Origin: a virus
IMG/VR virus record: IMGVR_UViG_3300020182_000119
Location: 1 to 32,006 of that record
Direction: 5' to 3' (one strand)
DNA length: 32,006 nucleotides
In this document: positions 15,149 through 29,823 of the stretch, in pieces
Layout: each line of letters begins with the position of its first letter
Numbering within the stretch: the stretch's first letter is position 1
Made by a program: the position numbers and the translations under genes
The notes under the pieces: generated by a model
The model's input: only the letters and a program-made list of their open reading frames with translations
The model's database searches: none
Told to the model about the DNA's origin: nothing

Positions 15149-15503
15149 TGCTGTCTAGAATAATATTAATTGGCGGTATTTCTTGGACCTCTTGCTCAGA
15201 TTCTTTCCATCCAGCTTGGGTTTTTAGGTAAAAAATATTAGCCGCTACGCTACCTGCTTTCGCTAACTGTACGAGGTTGGTCCCCATGCCCACGATTTGA
15301 TTTACGCGCCCCTTTTTATAAGCCGCAAAAACTTCAGGCTGTCTTTTCTCGATAGCCCTTAAAGTATTCTCAGTAATGCCAAAATAGTCAGCGATCTGTG
15401 ACTTGTTAAGCACGGACGCAAGAGCCTTTAACTCAATTGTTTGCTCTGCAGTAAGCTCTACAACAGGCCGCCCGCCACCATCACCTTGATTGCCTATTTT
15501 CAT
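15123..15503 (-). CDS. terS: Terminase small subunit
   Basis: 126 residues. The N-terminus is Gly-rich, then a helix-turn-helix region (LNKSQIADYFGITENTLRAIEKRQPEVF, residues ~33-60) and the segment AANIFYLKTQAGWKESE (~88-104), typical of TerS proteins of this group. It recognises the packaging site and recruits the large subunit. It starts with an ATGA overlap on the stop of the TET/JBP-like gene (15500-15503), tying the modification and packaging genes together. No HNH or extra domain. Confidence 0.82.
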   Translation of the reverse strand: MKIGNQGDGGGRPVVELTAEQTIELKALASVLNKSQIADYFGITENTLRAIEKRQPEVFAAYKKGRVNQIVGMGTNLVQLAKAGSVAANIFYLKTQAGWKESEQEVQEIPPINIILDSNAINQTSD

Positions 15504-16303
15504 TTTAAAAAACCTGACAATGCATAAAAAACTAAACTGTTACGATACCCGCCGTCATGGGTAGGCTCAATAGGAGTTACTGCGTGAACATTCCTCCAAG
15601 CAGGGTAAAATAATAAACTGTCACTTGGCATTTCAAAACAGGCTTCGTAGTCAGGGACATAAAGGCAGCCGCCATTAGAGTTGTGCCTGTGTGTATATAT
15701 GGCATTCAAGGTTTGCTTTATATTCGCGGTATCTCGGTGAAAAGGCGCTGAAATGTTAAAATTGCTAATACTACTGGTAAACAAGTCGCCAAATTTCCAT
15801 TTATCATCAACAGCTGAGACCGCCTTTAATTGAGCGTTAAGGTGATCAGGCATTAGATCGGCCATTACCGCTGACATTTCTTTTGCCGATACCAGCATAG
15901 CTTTAATGAAAGTTCTGGCGGACTTAACCGCGTGGACGCTGCTTCTGTTAGGGTAAGCCCTTCTCATTAAAGGTTTTGGCGGGATGCTTCCGATAATAGT
16001 GCTGTATTGTACCGTTCCAGCCTTCTTTGCTTCAGCCCTAGTCATTCCGCTCTTAACTTTAGCCATAACGTCAGCTCTTTCTAATAGAGTCTTAGGAACC
16101 CTGTCAGAAAGAAACTCTGCATTAGCTATAGACATCAGGCTCGCAAGTTTCGGGTAATCTTTTTTGACGTCAGATATGTAAACGCCAACTAACTCATCAC
16201 CGTCATACAGGTAGCAAGATTCTTTTACGTTAGGCTCTATGTACTCGCACCTTGATCCTATTTTTCTAGAATGCTCTACTTTCTGCATTTGCAACTTAAT
16301 CAT
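15500..16303 (-). CDS. TET/JBP-like Fe(II)/2-oxoglutarate dioxygenase
   Basis: 267 residues. The C-terminal ~90 residues show the family core: FHRDTANIK (HxD = H189, D191), NGGCLYVPDYEACFEM, DSLLFYPAWRNVHAVTPIEP (distal His H240) and GGYRNSLVFYALSG (2-oxoglutarate Arg R254). H-x-D, H and R occur in the correct order and spacing, so the active site looks intact. Known members (trypanosome JBP, animal TET, phage TET) oxidise 5-methyl groups of thymine or 5-methylcytosine in DNA. The N-terminal ~180 residues are unassigned and may bind DNA. It overlaps the glycosyltransferase by 4 bases and terS by 4. Which base it oxidises cannot be told from sequence. Confidence 0.86.
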   Translation of the reverse strand: MIKLQMQKVEHSRKIGSRCEYIEPNVKESCYLYDGDELVGVYISDVKKDYPKLASLMSIANAEFLSDRVPKTLLERADVMAKVKSGMTRAEAKKAGTVQYSTIIGSIPPKPLMRRAYPNRSSVHAVKSARTFIKAMLVSAKEMSAVMADLMPDHLNAQLKAVSAVDDKWKFGDLFTSSISNFNISAPFHRDTANIKQTLNAIYTHRHNSNGGCLYVPDYEACFEMPSDSLLFYPAWRNVHAVTPIEPTHDGGYRNSLVFYALSGFLK

Positions 16304-17025
16304 ACGACTTTCCTCATGCAGTGCTTCGCAAACCCTTTGATGTCCGTTTTTATGTCGAGCCTATCGGATTTAACCTTTAATGTAACCCAAGGGCTCCAAG
16401 ACAATGCCATTTTTTTGGCGGCTTGGTGGTCTTTTTTGCTTGCGTACCATTCATGCAACCCACCCTCATTGCTGCCTACGTTCGGGCAGCTAAACCAAAC
16501 GTGATTAAACCGTAATATCCCGTTACCATTCTGGATAGTCTGCATAGCGAAATCGCGATCTTCTTTGGTATCTTCGTTATAGCTCCATTTTATTTTCGAG
16601 ACGTTCATCAGAGTGCATACTTCAGCGAACTTGCTGTTAATGCCATAGCTTTTTTTCTCAGTCCAAGCGTACTGCACATAACTCAAACCAACTATCTCAA
16701 ACGGCAATTTTTTGGCTTTGTCTTCAACGCTTTTTAGCACTGAAGCGCCTTTTCTGACTGTCTTTCCGTTGTATATCCCAAATCCGTCAACATCATCGTC
16801 ACAGAACCAAGCCCAATCGATATATTTATCCCTACACCAGTCAAGCATGAAATTTCTTACGTATGTTACGCCCTTGTCATTAGCTTCGATGCAAATTTTA
16901 TTTTTAACAGGATAAACTTCCATCTCTTGCGGCTCAATGAAGTGATATACCTCATATCCAGCATCTTCAAAAAGTTTATATGTTTTGGTTGATGGTCTCC
17001 CTTTACTTGGTATACAGACTATCAT
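16300..17025 (-). CDS. TET-associated-type (GT-A fold) glycosyltransferase, predicted DNA-modifying
   Basis: 241 residues. It opens MIVCIPSKGRPSTKTYKLF, then GVTYVRNFMLDWC with an RN pair (57-58), then the DxD-like cluster DDDVDGFGIYNG (acidic residues 76-80) for metal/nucleotide sugar, and EDRDF (155-159). The PSKGRP start and this motif order match the TAGT glycosyltransferases reported beside phage TET/JBP genes, which would attach sugar to oxidised bases. It starts by a 4-base overlap on the ParB-like gene and overlaps the dioxygenase by 4 bases. Sugar donor and acceptor base are not visible. Confidence 0.85.
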   Translation of the reverse strand: MIVCIPSKGRPSTKTYKLFEDAGYEVYHFIEPQEMEVYPVKNKICIEANDKGVTYVRNFMLDWCRDKYIDWAWFCDDDVDGFGIYNGKTVRKGASVLKSVEDKAKKLPFEIVGLSYVQYAWTEKKSYGINSKFAEVCTLMNVSKIKWSYNEDTKEDRDFAMQTIQNGNGILRFNHVWFSCPNVGSNEGGLHEWYASKKDHQAAKKMALSWSPWVTLKVKSDRLDIKTDIKGFAKHCMRKVV

Positions 17026-17621
17026 AATTTATTCTTTTCTTTGCGAAGATAGTCTAATATCAAACCACCAACATAAGCGCCCTGACCTCTCCAGAATTTT
17101 ATCAACTCTGAAGCATCTTCATAATCTTGAGCTTCAAATTCTATTTGTATAGCTTTTTTGACTTCACCAGTCATGCTTTCTAATTCATCATGGAGATCAT
17201 CATCATCTAAAATAGAATAATCAACTTCACCTTTGAAATCTGGAAGGACATCCCAACCGAGAATATCTAAATCAAAATCAAAATCAGATAACGCCTCAAT
17301 TTCTATTTTCAAAAGCTCATCGTCCCACCCAGAATTTAACGCCAACTTGTTATCAGCTATAACGTAAGCCTTTTTCTGCGCCTCTGTAAATCCTTTCAAG
17401 GAAATTGTCGGTACAGTGTCCATGCCTAGCAGTTGAGCGGCTTGTAGCCTACCATGCCCAGCTATAATGCCATTATCCTCGTCTATAAGTATTGGATTAG
17501 TAAAGCCAAACTCTTTAATGCTTGCAGCGACTTGCTGTACTTGTTTCTCGCTGTGCGTTCTTGAATTGTTTGCATAAGGAATTAGCTTTCCTGTTTGTTT
17601 CCACTCTATAGATTCCATCAT
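17022..17621 (-). CDS. ParB/Srx-domain protein of the modification cassette
   Basis: 199 residues. Residues ~5-85 are a ParB N-terminal-like domain: NNSRTHSEKQ (~18-27), FGFTNPILID (38-47) and the signature AGHGRLQAAQLLG (54-66). After an acidic linker (~125-150, LDDDDLHDELE), the C-terminal ~50 residues (IQIEFEAQDYEDASELIKFW and VGGLILDYLRKEKNKL) form a helical domain. In many phages this domain pair comes with or inside DNA methyltransferases, but no methyltransferase motif lies between them here. It may bind or nick DNA, or guide the modification enzymes. Either of the first two ATGs could be used; both overlap the previous stop. Confidence 0.8.
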   Translation of the reverse strand: MMESIEWKQTGKLIPYANNSRTHSEKQVQQVAASIKEFGFTNPILIDEDNGIIAGHGRLQAAQLLGMDTVPTISLKGFTEAQKKAYVIADNKLALNSGWDDELLKIEIEALSDFDFDLDILGWDVLPDFKGEVDYSILDDDDLHDELESMTGEVKKAIQIEFEAQDYEDASELIKFWRGQGAYVGGLILDYLRKEKNKL

Positions 17622-17903: not shown

Positions 17904-17932
17904 ATTATGGCATGGTTTTAACTAAAATGTAA
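17904..17932 (-). promoter_or_regulatory. Promoter P4, start of the modification/packaging/structural operon
   Basis: Minus-strand -35 TTACAT (17927-17932), 17-base spacer, -10 CATAAT (17904-17909); GTTACA with an 18-base spacer is an alternative. The -10 flank CATGCCATAATG resembles the same region of promoter P2 (CATGCATAATG). A degenerate copy of the operator palindrome covers the -35 and spacer. The 17872 gene starts 32 bases below. Confidence 0.68.
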
Positions 17933-17933
17933 C
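17915..17933. promoter_or_regulatory. Degenerate operator O4 (GTTTTAAC-N6-GTAAC)
   Basis: Plus strand GTTTTAAC, TAAAAT, GTAAC. It matches the perfect sites O1-O3 (GTTTAC-N6-GTAAAC) in position on the promoter, spacer composition (AAAAT) and right half, but has changes in both arms. A weaker site here would let the late operon escape control first or respond differently. Binding is inference. Confidence 0.5.
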
Positions 17934-18001: not shown

Positions 18002-18218
18002 TGTTTGCCCCCTTGTTGGTAAGTTAAGGCGGCATTGTATAGACGATCAGTTATGATTTGAAATGCTTGTTTTAGATGATATATATACCAGTAATGATAT
18101 ATGGTTTAACTTTGTTATTATTTACGCAGTAATACTACGCATATAGGCACATTCTTAAACCAAATTTACCAAATGCGTAAAATGTATATTACAGTATACA
18201 TTGTGCAATTTATGAAAC
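18002..18218. other. Gene-free control region between two operons
   Basis: About 215 bases, AT-rich, with no convincing ORF. It lies between the terminator of the upstream operon and the 22-residue ORF. It holds several short inverted repeats: AATGTATA-N6-TATACATT (18181-18202), TTTAC-N7-GTAAA (18165-18181), and a TTTACGCA/TGCGTAAA pair (around 18121-18178). A possible weak promoter is TTTAAG-N16-TAGTAT on the minus strand. Candidate roles: promoters, regulator sites or a replication origin; no iteron array was seen. Confidence 0.45.
18181..18202. promoter_or_regulatory. Perfect palindrome AATGTATA-N6-TATACATT, probable second operator
   Basis: Eight-base perfect arms separated by TTACAG. 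It has the same 8-6-8 size as operator O1, but a different arm sequence, so it probably binds another dimeric regulator (host or phage). It stands 180 bases above the 22-residue ORF start, in the gene-free control region. Confidence 0.55.
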
Positions 18219-19453: not shown

Positions 19454-19660
19454 TTATATATTTGTTTTGATTACATCTATAGCATCTGGAAGATTAGCAT
19501 CGTAAAGAGCCTCACATAAAACTCCTACGCCAGCAGATATGACGTGCGACCTAACGAAATACTGTATAGTCTCGTCACTATCAGCCAATAACCTTTCCTG
19601 CATTAATTGCTTAATTACTTTTGGATCAACCTCAAGTGTGCATTCGACTTTAATTTTCAT
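19454..19660 (-). CDS. Small hypothetical protein (68 residues)
   Basis: MKIKVECTLEVDPKVIKQLM ... IDVIKTNI. An N-terminal beta strand and a helix (LMQERLLADSDETIQYFVRS) are visible. Its ribosome site (AAGGGG) follows a G/C hairpin. I do not recognise a family. Confidence 0.6.
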   Translation of the reverse strand: MKIKVECTLEVDPKVIKQLMQERLLADSDETIQYFVRSHVISAGVGVLCEALYDANLPDAIDVIKTNI

Positions 19661-19680
19661 ATTATTCCCCTTGATTGATT

Positions 19681-19697
19681 GCCCCCCCGTAGGGGGC
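19681..19697. other. G/C hairpin between two accessory genes
   Basis: GCCCCC-TAC-GGGGGC on the minus strand (one extra G), just after the stop of the 53-residue gene. No U-tract follows, so it is not a standard terminator. It may slow or stabilise the mRNA and limit expression of the 19660 gene. Confidence 0.5.
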
Positions 19698-19703
19698 GGT
19701 AGA

Positions 19704-19897: not shown

Positions 19898-19926
19898 ACT
19901 ATGCGCTTAGTTTACTTAAATGTAAA
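19898..19926 (-). promoter_or_regulatory. Promoter P3 for the accessory small-gene operon
   Basis: Minus-strand -35 TTTACA (19921-19926), 17-base spacer, -10 CATAGT (19898-19903). It has the same register as P1, P2 and P4. The next gene, ATG 19865, is 33 bases downstream. The operator palindrome covers the -35 and the start of the spacer, so a bound regulator should block RNA polymerase. Confidence 0.78.
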
Positions 19927-19927
19927 C
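19910..19927. promoter_or_regulatory. Operator O3, GTTTAC-TTAAAT-GTAAAC
   Basis: Perfect six-base arms with a 6-base spacer, identical arms to O1 and O2. It overlaps the -35 of P3. The XRE-type protein at 24207-24413 is the best candidate for binding, though no binding is shown. Confidence 0.75.
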
Positions 19928-19948
19928 CCCTAAATGAAAAAAAACACC

Positions 19949-22400: not shown

Positions 22401-22696
22401 TTATCCATCATCCGTTCACAACTGTTTTCTAGCCTGCTGGCCGTTGCCACCCTTTCCCTAGCTGCCTTGTCATAACCCAGCCGATTCTTTTCAAATGCAA
22501 AGATCGGTTTTAGGTGGTCAGGCGTACAGTATTGCGCCCCGTATAGCCTGCCCTTCAAGGTGCTGTACTTCAGGGTCTCAGGGTTCATTTCGTTGCAGAC
22601 TTTTACATACTCAGCAATCGTGTAGCATTTACCATCCTCCAGCTTTGGATGCTCGCCCCTAAACTCAACTAACCTTTTTGCATTCTTACTACGCAT
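22379..22696 (-). CDS. Hypothetical protein, possible DNA-binding
   Basis: 105 residues, basic and helical (GKCYTIAEYVKVCNEMNPET, LKYSTLKGRLYGAQYCTPDH). The TIAEYVKV... STLKGRLY part looks like a helix-turn-helix, so a DNA-binding role is plausible. It overlaps the gene above by 8 bases and NinB by 22 bases. No known family recognised. Confidence 0.55.
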   Translation of the reverse strand: MRSKNAKRLVEFRGEHPKLEDGKCYTIAEYVKVCNEMNPETLKYSTLKGRLYGAQYCTPDHLKPIFAFEKNRLGYDKAARERVATASRLENSCERMMDKWLRVKL

Positions 22697-23060
22697 TCTT
22701 TAATTCCCCGTCATAATAAAAGCCAAACTTGTCGAGATAATACTGCTTCATCATTAGCTGCATATCACCATCAAGCCAGCTAATATCTGTCATCTGCATA
22801 TCTATAGACTTAGCCCTAATACTGTCAGACTTATTTTGCTTTTGAGCTTGAGGCGATCCGCCACGGTCTTGAGCGCGAGATAGCCAAGAATTAACAAAGC
22901 GTTTAATACCTTGTTTGGTCTTGCGCTTAGTAGGGTTAGCGTCGCACCATGACTCCATCGCCATTAGTTCTTGGTGGACATTGATAGCAGGGTAGGTACG
23001 CTGCCAAGCAATGACATCTTTCTCTTCTGGCTGCCAATCTTCTTTGTTATTTAATAACAT
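22689..23060 (-). CDS. Replication-module protein (DnaT/initiator-like helical domain)
   Basis: 123 residues. The core WQRTYPAINVHQELMAMESW, ANPTKRKTKQGIKRFVNSWL and SRAQDRGGSP is a pattern I know at the C-termini of phage replication initiators or helicase-loader proteins (YP..NV..EL..M..W...NP.KR.T..GI..FV..WL). Here it stands alone, without a helicase or primase domain. It lies among replication and recombination genes. A role in replication initiation is likely but not shown. Confidence 0.6.
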   Translation of the reverse strand: MLLNNKEDWQPEEKDVIAWQRTYPAINVHQELMAMESWCDANPTKRKTKQGIKRFVNSWLSRAQDRGGSPQAQKQNKSDSIRAKSIDMQMTDISWLDGDMQLMMKQYYLDKFGFYYDGELKNA

Positions 23061-23646: not shown

Positions 23647-23895
23647 TTAAATGTCGTAATTATATTCTTCTGGTATTTTTTCAGGTGGAACCCACCTTAT
23701 AGGTATTGCTGCTTTTTTCCTACGAACAGCTCTTTCTCTTCTTTTTCTTGCTAGTAATTCTGGACTAGATTTGTAATTAATAACCTTAGCTCCGTTGCAT
23801 TTTTCACAAGTTTTTGTTTCGCGCTTCATCGTTTTATAACGTAATGCTGTTATAACTCCATCACCAAGACAATGTGAACAAGTTTCTGTGTGCAT
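23647..23895 (-). CDS. DnaJ-type zinc-finger protein
   Basis: 82 residues with two Cys pairs: CSHCLGDGV and CEKCNGAKV, exactly the C-x-x-C-x-G-x-G form of DnaJ central zinc domains, then a basic Arg/Lys helix (RKRRERAVRRKKAAIP) and a Pro-rich end. Such short proteins often appear as transcription or RNA-binding factors in phages. It is the first gene after the long leader from P1 and its own possible promoter. A regulatory function is plausible, not shown. Confidence 0.65.
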   Translation of the reverse strand: MHTETCSHCLGDGVITALRYKTMKRETKTCEKCNGAKVINYKSSPELLARKRRERAVRRKKAAIPIRWVPPEKIPEEYNYDI

Positions 23896-24184
23896 TTCTT
23901 TCTCCTATGGCTCGGCAAGCCTCGCCTTGTGTATTGATAAATTATATTTTGATTACTTTTTTAAAGGTAAATTAAACCCTTTAACAACAAAAAGCTGAAA
24001 ATTTACGATCTAAGGGCTTGCGCGACTCAGCGGTATAATTCGTGACCGTATCGAATATCTAATCTATCCATTGGTAACTACCGAGCTACCGCAGGGGCTA
24101 TGTCCACAATTGGCAATGCGACTCCGACGTTTAATTTAAGATTTTCGTCAGCCTCTAGCCCGATCACTTTTTGAATGATGCCTG
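23896..24184 (-). other. Gene-free region below operator O1 (290 bases)
   Basis: No convincing gene. It would be the 5' leader of mRNA from promoter P1. A 29-codon open stretch (GTG 24167, ending TAG near 24080) with no ribosome site and a 13-codon one starting at ATG 24071 look like decayed coding DNA or chance. GAGTCGC occurs twice and CGGTAG twice. The pair GCGGTA/TACCGC (24030-24035 with 24087-24092) could close a 63-base structure. A structured RNA, pseudogene remnant or origin are all possible. Confidence 0.45.
23941..23970 (-). promoter_or_regulatory. Possible promoter for the zinc-finger/replication operon
   Basis: Minus strand -35 TTACCT (23965-23970), 18-base spacer, -10 TATAAT (23941-23946), a perfect -10. 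The ATG of the zinc-finger gene is 46 bases below. No palindromic operator of the O1-O3 type overlaps it, so it may be active without the regulator. Confidence 0.55.
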
Positions 24185-24203
24185 TAGTTTACCTAAAAGT
24201 AAA
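24175..24203 (-). promoter_or_regulatory. Promoter P1 below the XRE regulator gene
   Basis: Minus-strand -35 TTTACT (24198-24203), 17-base spacer, -10 CATCAT (24175-24180). It shares register and spacing with P2 and P3. Its -35 lies within O1. Transcription goes through the 290-base gene-free region to the zinc-finger gene. The -10 is the weakest of the set. Confidence 0.6.
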
Positions 24204-24206
24204 CTA
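24185..24206. promoter_or_regulatory. Operator O1, TAGTTTAC-CTAAAA-GTAAACTA
   Basis: Perfect eight-base arms and a 6-base spacer, the longest of the operator set. It begins directly after the stop codon of the XRE regulator and covers the -35 of P1. Sites O2 and O3 share the inner arms GTTTAC and GTAAAC. The short distance to the regulator gene suggests that the regulator controls the operon below it. Confidence 0.75.
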
Positions 24207-24413
24207 TTAATTCCCAAACGCAAGAAACTCATCTAGCGTGATATCAAGGCACATTGCAATTAACTGCGCTGTATGTAGTTTCATGTTTTTATTAGATCGC
24301 CATCTTATAACTTGCGGCTTAGAAGTTTTTGCTATTCTGGCAAGCTCACTGGAACTAATATTTTTATAGCTTTGCGCGTTTCTTACGCACTGACCCGCAT
24401 CAATAAATTTCAT
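24207..24413 (-). CDS. XRE/Cro-type transcription regulator
   Basis: 68 residues. The helix-turn-helix is seen at ~20-42: ISSSELARIAKTSKPQVIRW. The rest (MKLHTAQLIAMCLDITLDEF) is the typical C-terminal helix pair of short Cro-like or XRE proteins. Such proteins bind palindromes as dimers. The four matching operators in this window (O1-O4) make this the best candidate. The first operator is directly downstream of its stop. No CI-type cleavage domain and no integrase are seen, so it is more likely a timing switch than a lysogeny repressor. Confidence 0.82.
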   Translation of the reverse strand: MKFIDAGQCVRNAQSYKNISSSELARIAKTSKPQVIRWRSNKNMKLHTAQLIAMCLDITLDEFLAFGN

Positions 24414-24427
24414 CTTACAGAATCCTG

Positions 24428-24500
24428 TGGTATATTAATTGGGTCGGTTCCCCCGATCGACAACCTCCTATGGTTTGCCCCCCGAAAGGGGGGCTTTTTT
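24428..24500 (+). ncRNA. Possible short antisense RNA over the leader of the XRE regulator
   Basis: On the plus strand an extended -10 (TG-G-TATATT, 24428-24436) is followed at 24477-24500 by a perfect hairpin and U-tract. A transcript of about 60 bases would begin near 24443. It is complementary to the leader of the mRNA that carries the regulator gene (24414-24503), including a purine-rich AGGAGG. The -35 is poor (TTTCAT), so this is tentative, in the manner of lambda OOP RNA. Confidence 0.45.
24477..24500 (+). terminator. Plus-strand rho-independent terminator
   Basis: GCCCCCC-GAAA-GGGGGGC followed by six T, on the plus strand: a seven-pair stem with a GAAA-type loop. The minus strand has no U-tract after the hairpin, so it ends transcripts going rightward. 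No gene is on that strand here. It lies just after the SSB stop (24504) in the intergenic region before the regulator. Confidence 0.8.
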
Positions 24501-24503
24501 ACC

Positions 24504-24818
24504 CTAGAACGGAATGTCAGCATCTAGCTCTTCCATCGTCATATCTTCTTTAGCCGTAGTTCCTTGCCCCGCAGAACCTGCTGGTGATCCTGAGTCGGTA
24601 TAAAATACCTTAACATTGCCAAGAATAGGGGTTTTAGTCCCAGCGTCACGCTCTTCTTTATCGACGGTCTGGCTGATAAAACCATTGTTGTCATACTGAT
24701 CAGCTACTGCTGTATCTACAAAGGTAGTAAGGTCAAGATAAGTACCTTTTGCTCCCTTATACAGGCGCGACTTGTCGATTTTGGTAACATCAATTCGTAC
24801 TGATAAGCCTACTTTCAT
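24504..24818 (-). CDS. ssb: Single-stranded DNA-binding protein
   Basis: 104 residues. The N-terminal beta part (KVGLSVRIDVTKIDKSRLYK and GTYLDLTTFVDT) looks like an OB-fold. It ends with a Gly/Ser-rich linker and the acidic tail MEELDADIPF, the SSB C-terminal tip used for protein contacts. It overlaps the exonuclease by 4 bases. With the annealing protein and exonuclease it forms a complete phage recombination set. Confidence 0.82.
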   Translation of the reverse strand: MKVGLSVRIDVTKIDKSRLYKGAKGTYLDLTTFVDTAVADQYDNNGFISQTVDKEERDAGTKTPILGNVKVFYTDSGSPAGSAGQGTTAKEDMTMEELDADIPF

Positions 24819-25414
24819 TTTAACTTCTCCACTTGGTTTAAAATTTCCGCTAAAGCCTTATCGACCTCAGCAGACAGTTTTGCGATATAGTCATCATCGC
24901 GTTCTACGCGCACTAGAACGTGCGGCATTTCTGGATGGTAGGCAAAGAAGTCCCACCACTCCCGTTTGGTTATCCACATACAGCCTTGGATTTGCTGCCA
25001 GTATTTCTTAACACCGACCTGCGGGTCTCTGAGATAGCTCACCATAGTCTTAGGCGCAGGACATTTAATCTCCAAGCCACCCTCATCGCCTATCAGGCCA
25101 TCAGGCGAACAGCCAAACTCAAAGCTAGTATCAAGGATAAAGCCAGTCTCGATTACATCATTGCCAGATATGAACTCATACGCTTCCCTAGCTTCTGGCT
25201 CGAGCTCAGTGCCGCGCTGCATCCATTCGGTGATATGAAACGGCTCAGATTGCCCTGTAAGGCGTTCTGCGATCAATTCATTGACATACCCATCAGCAGA
25301 GGTGCTAGGCTTCCCAGTAAGCGTAATTAGCTTGGCAAACATACTAGCGGATGGCTTGCCCAGTCTTGCAGCAAGCCATTCTGGTGATCCCTGCTCATGG
25401 TCCAAGATAATCAC
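24815..25414 (-). CDS. Lambda-exonuclease-like (YqaJ) nuclease
   Basis: 199 residues. Motifs: HEQGSPEWLAARLGKPSAS (6-24), MQRGTELEPEAREAYE (65-80), GCSPDGLIGDEGGLEIKCPA with D105 and E115-x-K117, and KYWQQIQGCMWIT. This is the complete YqaJ/Red-exonuclease set, a PD-(D/E)XK 5'-3' exonuclease that makes 3' single strands for annealing. It overlaps the annealing protein by 4 bases and SSB by 4. Confidence 0.9.
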   Translation of the reverse strand: MIILDHEQGSPEWLAARLGKPSASMFAKLITLTGKPSTSADGYVNELIAERLTGQSEPFHITEWMQRGTELEPEAREAYEFISGNDVIETGFILDTSFEFGCSPDGLIGDEGGLEIKCPAPKTMVSYLRDPQVGVKKYWQQIQGCMWITKREWWDFFAYHPEMPHVLVRVERDDDYIAKLSAEVDKALAEILNQVEKLK

Positions 25415-25977
25415 TTCTTGGCCTCTAGTGCGGCAACAGCGCGATCAAAGTGTACAGCTAATATCTGATCGACTGAGTTGACCTTCAGCCACTTGCAGAA
25501 TTTCTCGCTGTCGGCACCAGTTTCATCAAGTAATTTCTTGATGGCTATAATCTGATCGTCAGTGATAACTGCGTTCGCTATTACAGGGTTTATATCTTCA
25601 CCTGCGTAGATGTAGTGACCAAGCCCAAACATTGCGAAACATTTGACTAGACAGCGCATTTTGCTGGAGTTAATAGCAAACTTATCGGGGTTTGCGATAG
25701 CCTTATTGCGGTGATCCATAACAGGAAGCCACATATGCCGCATCATCATCTGATCTTTCTCTGAGCCAGTATGTATATGGACTACGCAACTAATCTCAAC
25801 TGTCCCTGTATCCTCGCATTTATCCTCTTCGAAAGAGTAATGCAGGTCAGGATAATGCTCCATCATAGTGCCGTAAGCCCAAGCCCACGACAGATATGAT
25901 AAGTTGCCTTTTTTCTCAATATGCTGAGATACATCAATAGCAGATAGGGTCTGCCAGACTTCTTTAGATAAACTCAT
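25411..25977 (-). CDS. Single-strand annealing protein (DUF1071/Sak3-like)
   Basis: 188 residues. The N-terminal text GNLSYLSWAWAYGTMMEHYP is the DUF1071 (Sak3) hallmark, followed by WLPVMDHRNKAIANPDKFAI, SKMRCLVKCFAMFGLGHYIY and AGEDI. These proteins pair single strands with the partner exonuclease. The C-terminal helix region (ITDDQIIAIKKLLDETGADS) is a HeH-like end. The ribosome site AGGAGG is perfect. It is joined by a 4-base overlap to the exonuclease. Confidence 0.87.
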   Translation of the reverse strand: MSLSKEVWQTLSAIDVSQHIEKKGNLSYLSWAWAYGTMMEHYPDLHYSFEEDKCEDTGTVEISCVVHIHTGSEKDQMMMRHMWLPVMDHRNKAIANPDKFAINSSKMRCLVKCFAMFGLGHYIYAGEDINPVIANAVITDDQIIAIKKLLDETGADSEKFCKWLKVNSVDQILAVHFDRAVAALEAKK

Positions 25978-26393: not shown

Positions 26394-26422
26394 ATTATGC
26401 ATGGTGTTTACGAAAATGTAAA
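26394..26422 (-). promoter_or_regulatory. Promoter P2 of the recombination operon
   Basis: Minus strand -35 TTTACA (26417-26422), 17-base spacer, -10 CATAAT (26394-26399), close to sigma70 consensus. The operator O2 covers the -35 and first spacer bases. The first ATG (26360) follows 33 bases below. It comes directly after the terminator of the lysis operon, so a new transcript begins here. Confidence 0.82.
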
Positions 26423-26423
26423 C
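26406..26423. promoter_or_regulatory. Operator O2, GTTTAC-GAAAAT-GTAAAC
   Basis: Perfect six-base arms, 6-base spacer, same arms and register as O1 and O3. It covers the -35 of promoter P2. The XRE-type protein is the probable binder. No other purpose for the palindrome is seen. Confidence 0.77.
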
Positions 26424-26441
26424 TATTATTTAAAAAAAGAC

Positions 26442-29080: not shown

Positions 29081-29323
29081 TTATTCCTCCAGTGATGCCT
29101 GATAAGCCGCAACAACTGCATCAGTATGCACAGCAGCACAGATAGCCTGTACCTCTGCTGATTCGTTGCTGTAGTCATCACCTGCGGTTATAACGTGGCG
29201 ATGGTAGCCTGAAGATAGCTCTACGCCGTCTTCTAGGACTTTTGTGCAGGTTCTAATCTGTACGCTTTTAAACTCGCCACAAATCTCAATCTTGTCTTCA
29301 GATACTACTTTTTCAAGTGCCAT
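29081..29323 (-). CDS. Conserved hypothetical phage protein (80 residues)
   Basis: MALEKVVSEDKIEICGEFKS, VQIRTCTKVLEDGVELSSGY and HRHVITAGDDYSNESAEVQA. Pattern EICGEFKxVQIRTxTxVxEDGxExSxxxHRHVxxxGDDxS is one I have seen repeatedly in small proteins beside fibre genes of marine phages. Function not known. It overlaps the HNH gene by one base. Confidence 0.65.
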   Translation of the reverse strand: MALEKVVSEDKIEICGEFKSVQIRTCTKVLEDGVELSSGYHRHVITAGDDYSNESAEVQAICAAVHTDAVVAAYQASLEE

Positions 29324-29823
29324 TACGCGGCCTCCTTCTTATATGTTTTATTTAAAACCACATTGCTGATTGTGGCAGATGTCGTGTTATACATTTTAGC
29401 AATAGCTGTTTGTGTCATGCCACCTTGATAGAGAACTCGCATATTCTCAGCTTCTTCAAACAAAAAGTGCCTGCTTTTTAATCCTTGTTGCCTAGCAACC
29501 TCTCGTTGTTTTTCTGATGGATTACGAAGGCCAGTAGCGAAAGCGTGTTTATGGTTTTCAGAGTGATTGCACCACTCAAGGTTTGCCACTCGATTATCTA
29601 ACTTGTCACCGTTAATGTGGTTAACACAATCTTTGCTTTCGTGCTTATTACAAAACGCTAATGCGACCAAACGGTGAATTGATTGTGTTTTATTGTGAAG
29701 TCTTACTGACAGGTATCCGCTTCCCGTTACGGCTGGTTTTAACCACCTGTTAGTCTTGTAACTCCACACGCGTCCATCCTTGCTAACTGCGTATGATTCA
29801 TCGATGTTTTTAAGTTCTTTCAT
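29323..29823 (-). CDS. HNH homing endonuclease (NUMOD4 type), free-standing
   Basis: 166 residues. NUMOD4 region at ~5-45 (ESYAVSKDGRVWSYKTNRWL), then an HNH domain at ~50-95: RLVALAFCNKHESKDCVNHI, NGDKLDNRVANLEW and NHSENHKHAF. A C-terminal helix-turn-helix (~120-160: YQGGMTQTAIAKMYNTTSAT) probably recognises the target. Enzymes of this kind cut DNA in phages lacking the gene, so that the gene is copied in. It is between a fibre gene and small structural genes, and no interrupted gene is seen. Confidence 0.85.
   Translation of the reverse strand: MKELKNIDESYAVSKDGRVWSYKTNRWLKPAVTGSGYLSVRLHNKTQSIHRLVALAFCNKHESKDCVNHINGDKLDNRVANLEWCNHSENHKHAFATGLRNPSEKQREVARQQGLKSRHFLFEEAENMRVLYQGGMTQTAIAKMYNTTSATISNVVLNKTYKKEAA

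Follow-up and report, generated by a model that had tools for sequence, protein, structure and literature searches.

A small XRE regulator, operator-like dyads and two conserved RNAs at early promoters of uncultivated marine phages

Background

How does a phage time its lytic operons when its one evident transcription factor is a protein of 68 residues and no CI partner accompanies it? To our knowledge, the timing of lytic genes in uncultivated marine phages has been little studied. The window analysed here is the entire IMG/VR record IMGVR_UViG_3300020182_000119, 32,006 bases from a marine bacterial virus, in which the gene for a small XRE protein is followed at once by a palindrome. An earlier note on this DNA had proposed the protein as a single, possibly Cro-like master switch acting on lytic operons through four operators, O1 to O4. 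We examined the protein, the putative operators and the surrounding noncoding DNA in the window and in related loci of uncultivated viruses.

Gene content of the window

All tiling open reading frames (ORFs) of the window lie on the minus strand. In the direction of transcription, profile matches give the order tail fibre, M15 peptidase (endolysin), Sak annealing protein, YqaJ exonuclease and XRE, then NinB, a repair exonuclease, NinG, Tet_JBP with TET-associated glycosyltransferase, terminase and tape measure protein; a replication-gene match at 22689-23060 was weak in the same search. The gene preceding XRE belongs to one family in 84 of 91 loci among the matches listed, and we take the acidic, DADIPF-ending tail of its product in the window to recall single-strand-binding proteins. 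The large terminase subunit shares 52-53% identity with its counterparts in the 32-kb pelagiphages HTVC111P, 202P, 026P and 112P; HTVC111P and HTVC202P, for all their related terminases, have a different gene order. In one relative (G005) partial homologues of the two end genes of the window lie about 1.7 kb apart, which suggests that the window is probably near-complete, with little missing. A NUMOD4/HNH_3 protein at 29323-29823 is a probable homing endonuclease, and neither tRNA nor tmRNA was found in the window. The features discussed below are collected in Table 1.

Table 1. Position and strand of the features discussed in the text (window coordinates; operators, promoters and RNAs as predicted).
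Feature	Position	Strand	Remarks
Sak-type single-strand annealing protein	25411..25977	-	PF06378, 3.8e-40
YqaJ-type exonuclease	24815..25414	-	PF09588, 7.5e-24
Gene before XRE (SSB-like candidate)	24504..24818	-	no Pfam match; acidic tail ends DADIPF
XRE regulator, 68 aa, single five-helix HTH domain (HTH_26)	24207..24413	-	ORF, Pfam, AlphaFold2
First P2-operon gene, Zn-ribbon-like protein	23647..23895	-	DnaJ_CXXCXGXG, under its cut-off
Genes behind O4/P4	15500..17621	-	Tet_JBP oxygenase 15500-16303; TET-associated glycosyltransferase 16300-17025; ParB_N protein 17022-17621
O1, dyad GTTTACATTTTCGTAAAC, core 26406-26423	26404..26425	-	over -35 of P1 (TTTACA, 17 nt, CATAAT; 26422-26394)
O2, dyad TAGTTTAC-N6-GTAAACTA	24185..24206	-	promoter P2: -35 TTTACT, 17 nt, -10 CATCAT
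O3, dyad GTTTACATTTAAGTAAAC, core 19910-19927	19908..19929	-	over -35 of P3 (TTTACA, 17 nt, CATAGT; 19926-19898)
O4/P4, degenerate site GTTACATTTTAGTTAAAAC at 17915-17933	17904..17933	-	-35 GTTACA, 18 nt, -10 CATAAT
Structured RNA, ~165 nt, helices P1-P6 and P4-loop pseudoknot	24006..24169	-	starts a few nt past predicted P2 start
Extended -10 promoter (TGGTATATT) of small RNA	24428..24436	+	type TGnTAnnnT
Small RNA, ~60 nt (predicted ends), antisense to XRE leader	24440..24500	+	hairpin 1 with C-rich loop, CCUCCUAUGG stretch, terminator
Rho-independent terminator (GCCCCCCGAAAGGGGGGC TTTTTT) of small RNA	24477..24500	+	U-tract co-occurs with extended -10
CCATAGGAG, Shine-Dalgarno region of first P2-operon gene	23902..23910	-	perfect 9-nt complement of small RNA, candidate target

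The XRE protein

The 68-residue ORF described earlier, for which no strand had been given, is present to the base on the minus strand; read on the plus strand, the same interval is interrupted by stop codons. Pfam HTH_26 matches the protein at E 3.7e-6, above the family cut-off, and the AlphaFold2 model (mean pLDDT 94.8) has five helices (6-17, 21-27, 32-40, 46-55 and 60-65), which together place it in the XRE/Cro-C1 HTH superfamily. HTH_3 matches it under the family cut-off, and no other protein of the window reaches E 0.001 with this profile, in agreement with the earlier note, which saw in XRE the only clear transcription factor of the window. No second domain was found: the length is 64-75 aa in all 47 representatives among the loci listed, a uniformity that owes something to the choice of start: an inner start codon giving 62-72 codons was picked by rule, and 13 of 93 XRE loci among the matches listed have a longest ORF of more than 75 codons (113 at most).

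Both profile and fold searches returned the controller proteins of restriction-modification (R-M) systems C.BclI and C.AhdI as the top solved-structure matches (profile E 1.3e-7 and 7.8e-4, respectively; Foldseek TM-score by query 0.80 for C.BclI, at 22% identity), and the single sequence searched against solved structures gave nothing at a useful E-value (best 1.3). We gathered 24 related XRE genes, and an HMM built from 8 relatives was used for the search around RNA loci described below. Tblastn found no relative at E 0.01 in 50,697 phage records, and a peptide pattern matched 204 stretches in 84,980 prokaryote genomes, none of them confirmed at the sensitivity used.

Operators and promoters

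The exact dyad GTTTACN6GTAAAC occurs three times in the window (the cores of O1 and O3, and 24187-24204 within O2), compared with a mean of 0.00 in 100 dinucleotide shuffles, and the three copies share one register in which the left arm holds the -35 box, followed by 17 bases and the -10. It is this shared register that counts, because promoter matches alone are no commoner than chance: 28 promoter-like sites were found in the window versus 34.8 expected from shuffles. P2 is absent from that promoter list because it has only 8 of 12 consensus bases. O1/P1 precedes the recombination operon whose last gene is XRE. O2 begins at the base next to the XRE stop codon and has arms of 8 bp, the longest of the set, as the earlier note had described; its promoter is predicted to drive the structured RNA and the genes behind it, and the O2/P2 layout recurs in many related loci. 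A protein sitting over a -35 box and spacer usually blocks polymerase, and the placement of the operators over -35 boxes fits repression.

The weakest operator, O4, had been assigned without coordinates to the late and modification genes; most likely it is the degenerate minus-strand site at 17915-17933, which does precede the late and modification genes (leading to the glycosyltransferase, Tet_JBP and terminase) and may control them. The row of Tet_JBP, TET-associated glycosyltransferase and ParB_N genes behind it is probably a DNA hypermodification cassette. Promoters of the form GTTTACATTT..TTAAAAC..TACAAT in the relatives G008 and G011 look like P4. A palindrome at 18181-18202 (AATGTATATTACAGTATACATT; 8-bp arms, 6-base spacer), unlike the operators in sequence, was set aside as a candidate for O4, as it differs in sequence and has no matching -35. 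A second GC-rich hairpin lies at 19678-19700, just before the gene starting at 19660, with similar ones in G003, G005, G006, G007 and G008.

Of the 116 distinct noncoding GTTTAC sites in the loci gathered, 88 are followed by a -10 at a spacing of 16-18 nt (72 of them at 17), versus 58 of the 332 coding sites. In the ten full-record relatives, two to five noncoding GTTTAC boxes were counted in G002, G004, G005, G007, G008, G011 and G012, one each in G001 and G006, and none in G003, which has two CTTTAC boxes instead. The second arm of the dyad is perfect at 6 of 7 sites in loci whose XRE carries an SKPQV recognition helix versus 0 of 96 in QQ-type loci (Fisher p 4.9e-9, uncorrected for kinship; -10 of at least 4/6, no coding filter, related loci counted); the seventh SKPQV site lies in coding DNA, and under a looser -10 rule one QQ-type locus (L155) has one perfect dyad. 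Outside the SKPQV clade, with perfect arms removed, the second arm matches on average 2.56 of 6 bases at N6, versus 1.87 in coding DNA and 2.41 at N8. These sequence comparisons link the type of recognition helix with the operator arms and point to XRE as the probable binder.

Since the dyad is weak outside the SKPQV clade, GTTTAC may in part be a plain promoter box. Taken further, this would make GTTTAC a shared box for a host sigma factor or a phage-modified polymerase, with XRE acting elsewhere, which we regard as rather unlikely: GTTTAC with a -10 does recur in relatives that have no good second arm, several such promoters have CTCAATCAA in common after the -10, and the most divergent relatives carry CTTTAC boxes, but the window has three perfect dyads and perfect second arms are tied to one recognition-helix type. 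The CTCAATCAA sequence (or CTCATTCAA) stands right behind the -10, as the first transcribed bases, at 19893-19883 of the window and at GTTTAC or CTTTAC promoters of G002, G003, G005, G007, G008 and G012. The rival readings weighed here and below are not all mutually exclusive.

The kinship in fold with R-M controllers raises the question of whether XRE might both activate and repress. C proteins bind dyads, activating at low and repressing at high concentration, and C.Csp231I is mainly a repressor, which represses its own promoter (excerpts of PMC8053105). The controllers C.BclI, C.AhdI and C.Csp231I share with XRE a small single-domain fold and have the dyad operators and timing role that are predicted for XRE. 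A classic controller-style XRE would thus activate at low dose and repress at high dose as a timed switch, for which its best solved-structure matches speak; however, where the controllers have one OL-OR box, the window has single dyads over -35 and spacer at three or four phage promoters, no paired OL-OR C-box was seen, no R-M pair was identified near XRE, and its neighbours belong to recombination and replication families. XRE has the fold of the R-M controllers, their gene neighbours and C-box were not identified beside it, and we hold dual activation and repression to be improbable.

Like lambda Cro, XRE is a small early protein without a cleavable domain, and its putative operators overlap promoters; in contrast to Cro, it has no CI partner found here and its gene is the last in its operon, not the first. 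The negative feedback exerted by lambda Cro is expected likewise for XRE, and the placement of the putative operators fits a Cro-type regulator.

The integrase search that the earlier note had called for was run, and agrees with its statement that neither integrase nor cleavable repressor was seen: PF00589, PF00239 and PF00717 each matched in 0 of 15 records, namely the window, 12 IMG/VR records (11 with the module described below; G009 is a chance match) and two pelagiphages, all of which may be incomplete. The genes expected of a temperate phage with CI-like control, for an integrase or resolvase and for a cleavable repressor, were thus not found in these records, nor, as judged from two families, was a CI partner on shared operators (S24 peptidase in 0 of 15 records, HTH_3 once in the window). 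XRE could still serve immunity in a temperate phage whose persistence would depend on a plasmid prophage state, for instance, or on an integrase of unknown type, rather than on a recombinase of the families sought here. Immunity systems are usually built in this way, from an XRE protein whose operators lie at several promoters, and the window has a ParB_N protein; against this stand the absence of all three families from the 15 records, the lack of a confirmed XRE relative or of the RNA core described below in 84,980 genomes at the sensitivity used, and the place of XRE at the end of an early operon with no promoter of its own seen. We consider a temperate phage highly improbable. The Cro-like reading is the best available, and XRE is likely a Cro-like or C-protein-like single-domain dimeric repressor that times the lytic operons of a lytic phage.

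The structured RNA

The 311-base gap between XRE and the next gene is conserved, contains no ORF in the tiling and holds the structured RNA. In an alignment of 53 sequences, 97.9% of 2067 cells are paired and 23 of 39 pairs show compensatory change, whereas shuffles gave 84.8% and 14.5, and sliding the partners left no more than 40.7% of cells paired; the pseudoknot consists mainly of invariant pairs and has one compensatory change. G.U pairs in 53 cells versus A.C in 1 point to the minus strand as the RNA strand. The 53 rows of this alignment (A2) were chosen from 72 among the matches listed, and helix P3 is misaligned in four of them; because 13 pattern-matching records had been omitted before the choice (2 cut by contig ends and 11 by an end rule, 7 of these of the L039 type without the 3' hairpin), A2 is slightly biased towards the full structure.

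A scan for the RNA core pattern, made without reference to XRE, matched at least 119 stretches of uncultivated virus DNA, and 100 distinct loci were distinguished among the matches listed (duplicates were removed only where the 300-base flanks were identical). In 93 of these 100 loci an XRE-family gene precedes the RNA in the same orientation, at 27-162 bases from the RNA core in 92 and at 361 in L130. As for the remaining seven, the XRE gene is cut in L025, L084 and L098 start at a contig edge, L076 has no XRE in its 1,473 upstream bases, and in L038, L072 and L109 the XRE gene is on the opposite strand at a distance of 2.1-2.8 kb. A covariance model found the sole copy of the window at 158.9 bits, exactly one copy in each of 10 full relatives, and divergent copies of 62-68 bits in 8 of 9 loci found via the small RNA alone; 28 of 32 loci tested match once, L032, L071 and L102 are chance pattern hits, and L150 gave no match. 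The model found no copy in HTVC111P or HTVC202P and only a 7-bit chance match in phage DSL-LC06. The core pattern occurs in none of 84,980 prokaryote genomes, and blastn of the RNA against 50,697 phages gave no match. No Rfam 15 family reached its gathering threshold in the window or in 18 related loci, and within 23850-24560 the RNA strand stayed without a match even when E was relaxed to 5. No description of the RNA or the module was found in the open-access literature searched, so far as its accessible text goes.

Variants of the structure were also seen. An insert, likely an extra hairpin, follows P2 in L013, L023, L035 and L038, and P3 in L046; the clade of L039, L051, L055 and L063 is missing the 3' hairpin and the ACCG pseudoknot partner and has an altered P4 loop. 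In L038 (228-2741) the recombination-XRE operon has been turned round, so that it is transcribed away from the structured RNA and the operon that follows it.

What the RNA may do is suggested by its surroundings. The first gene behind it belongs to 17 families in 87 loci among the matches listed (those of 98 in which a Shine-Dalgarno rule selected a downstream gene), while the RNA itself is constant, which disfavours a riboswitch specific for one gene. This variation, together with the constancy of the gene before XRE and the fact that the RNA keeps its own operon in L038, modestly favours a role in cis at the transcript head over a trans-acting RNA, a one-gene riboswitch or a replication primer. 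Tentatively, the RNA may be a cis leader that makes polymerase resist termination or pausing over the P2 operon, by analogy with the put RNAs of phage HK022: it begins near the predicted start of the P2 transcript, stays at the operon head when the XRE operon is inverted, and precedes variable genes unchanged. The put RNAs are likewise structured and located at the start of early phage transcripts, and putL lies just downstream of an early promoter and needs no dedicated protein (excerpts of PMC9378689). HK022 however has both putL and putR, of about 70 nt and two stems each, whereas each full record has one copy of an RNA of about 165 nt with six helices and a pseudoknot, for which antitermination is one candidate; moreover, the terminator search listed none on the minus strand between the RNA and the gene behind it, and only two weak ones further down the operon. 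A replication origin near the RNA was sought by GC skew, and the cumulative skew declines along the whole window and marks none.

The small antisense RNA

On the plus strand, opposite the XRE leader, the layout begins with an extended -10; after it come a hairpin whose loop is rich in C, a CUCCUAUGG stretch and a U-tract terminator. Among the matches listed, promoter and U-tract are both present in 67 of 68 distinct leaders, an AGGAG complement too in 64, and none of the three in one; by eye, L103 resembles L136 in having neither small-RNA signal. These leaders represent 84 of 100 loci, 16 being unscored (3 too short, 13 with no hairpin by the rule). In hairpin 1, 98.9% of 262 cells are paired and 5 of 6 pairs show compensatory change, versus 77.7% paired in shuffles and at most 55.6% in slid controls, although on two of the five measures a few shuffles did as well (2 and 8 of 500); the alignment (A4) comprises 44 of the 47 representatives, with L044, L081 and L134 left out for their long terminator loops. 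The plus strand is the likely RNA strand because 259 cells pair on it versus 224 on the minus strand, and G.U is seen in 36 cells versus A.C in 1. The window copy folds with z -2.55, and its minimum-energy fold pairs hairpin 1 in a register other than that of the covarying helix and draws part of the CU-rich stretch into a weak stem.

A 9-mer complementary to the small RNA is found in the window only in the XRE leader and at the start site of the first P2 gene, which makes the latter a candidate target. Among the matches listed, leader and downstream copies are both present in 57 of 91 scorable loci, the leader copy only in 15, the downstream copy only in 1 and neither in 18, 9 further loci being too short; the association of the two is confounded by kinship.

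Lambda OOP RNA is short, self-terminating and antisense to the early regulator cII, near replication genes (excerpts of PMC3349717). The small RNA is likewise short, self-terminating and antisense to an early regulator, with replication genes close by (compare PMC3349717): a promoter, an antisense overlap and a terminator opposite XRE can all be read in its sequence. OOP, however, overlaps the 3' end of its regulator, whereas the small RNA overlaps the leader and has an anti-Shine-Dalgarno loop and stretch, and an OOP-like role is offered as a lead by analogy. Anti-hemB (RF02837) and the betaproteobacterial toxic sRNA (RF02278) share with it a CU-rich stretch followed by a terminator hairpin; membership in either family was rejected at 15.2 of 49.5 and 14.6 of 50 bits, respectively, far under gathering.

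Proposed circuit

The description of XRE as a single master switch proves too simple, given that a conserved structured RNA and an antisense small RNA adjoin its gene: O2 is part of the promoter from which the structured RNA would be made, and the second RNA is antisense to the XRE leader. In the circuit that we propose, host RNA polymerase would read P1-P4, whose -35 boxes form one half of the operator dyads. P1 would yield the annealing protein, the exonuclease, the SSB-like protein and lastly XRE. As its amount rose, XRE, probably as a dimer, would cover the -35 box and spacer at P1, thereby limiting its own synthesis, and likewise at P2 and P3; occupancy would be lowest at the degenerate O4, for which it would have the least affinity. 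The P2 transcript would begin with the structured RNA at its 5' end and continue with replication and repair genes. The small RNA, transcribed from the opposite strand without an operator of its own and presumably at a constant level, would probably temper XRE, and the first gene of the P2 operon may be a second target through pairing at its start site. Repression of P1-P3 leaves late-gene activation unexplained.

Conclusions

Beyond a single protein switch, a conserved protein-and-RNA module is found at early promoters of a large group of uncultivated phages. It is possible, though we put it forward with reserve, that uncultivated marine phages have in common an early-control module not described before. 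Its components would be a repressor of one domain, an anti-Shine-Dalgarno RNA antisense to the repressor leader, and a pseudoknotted leader RNA of about 165 nt, of a new class, at a repressed early promoter. Independently of the gene behind it, the leader RNA would work in cis on RNA polymerase or take part in replication, and protein and RNA would jointly set early timing with no CI partner involved. The circuit is compact, with one small repressor, defined operator candidates, an antisense RNA and a strongly covarying leader RNA that matches no Rfam family. Should this leader prove to act on polymerase or replication, it would be a new RNA class with a defined role in phages; if not, its covariance model still marks the early promoter in a large phage group that is not yet in culture collections.
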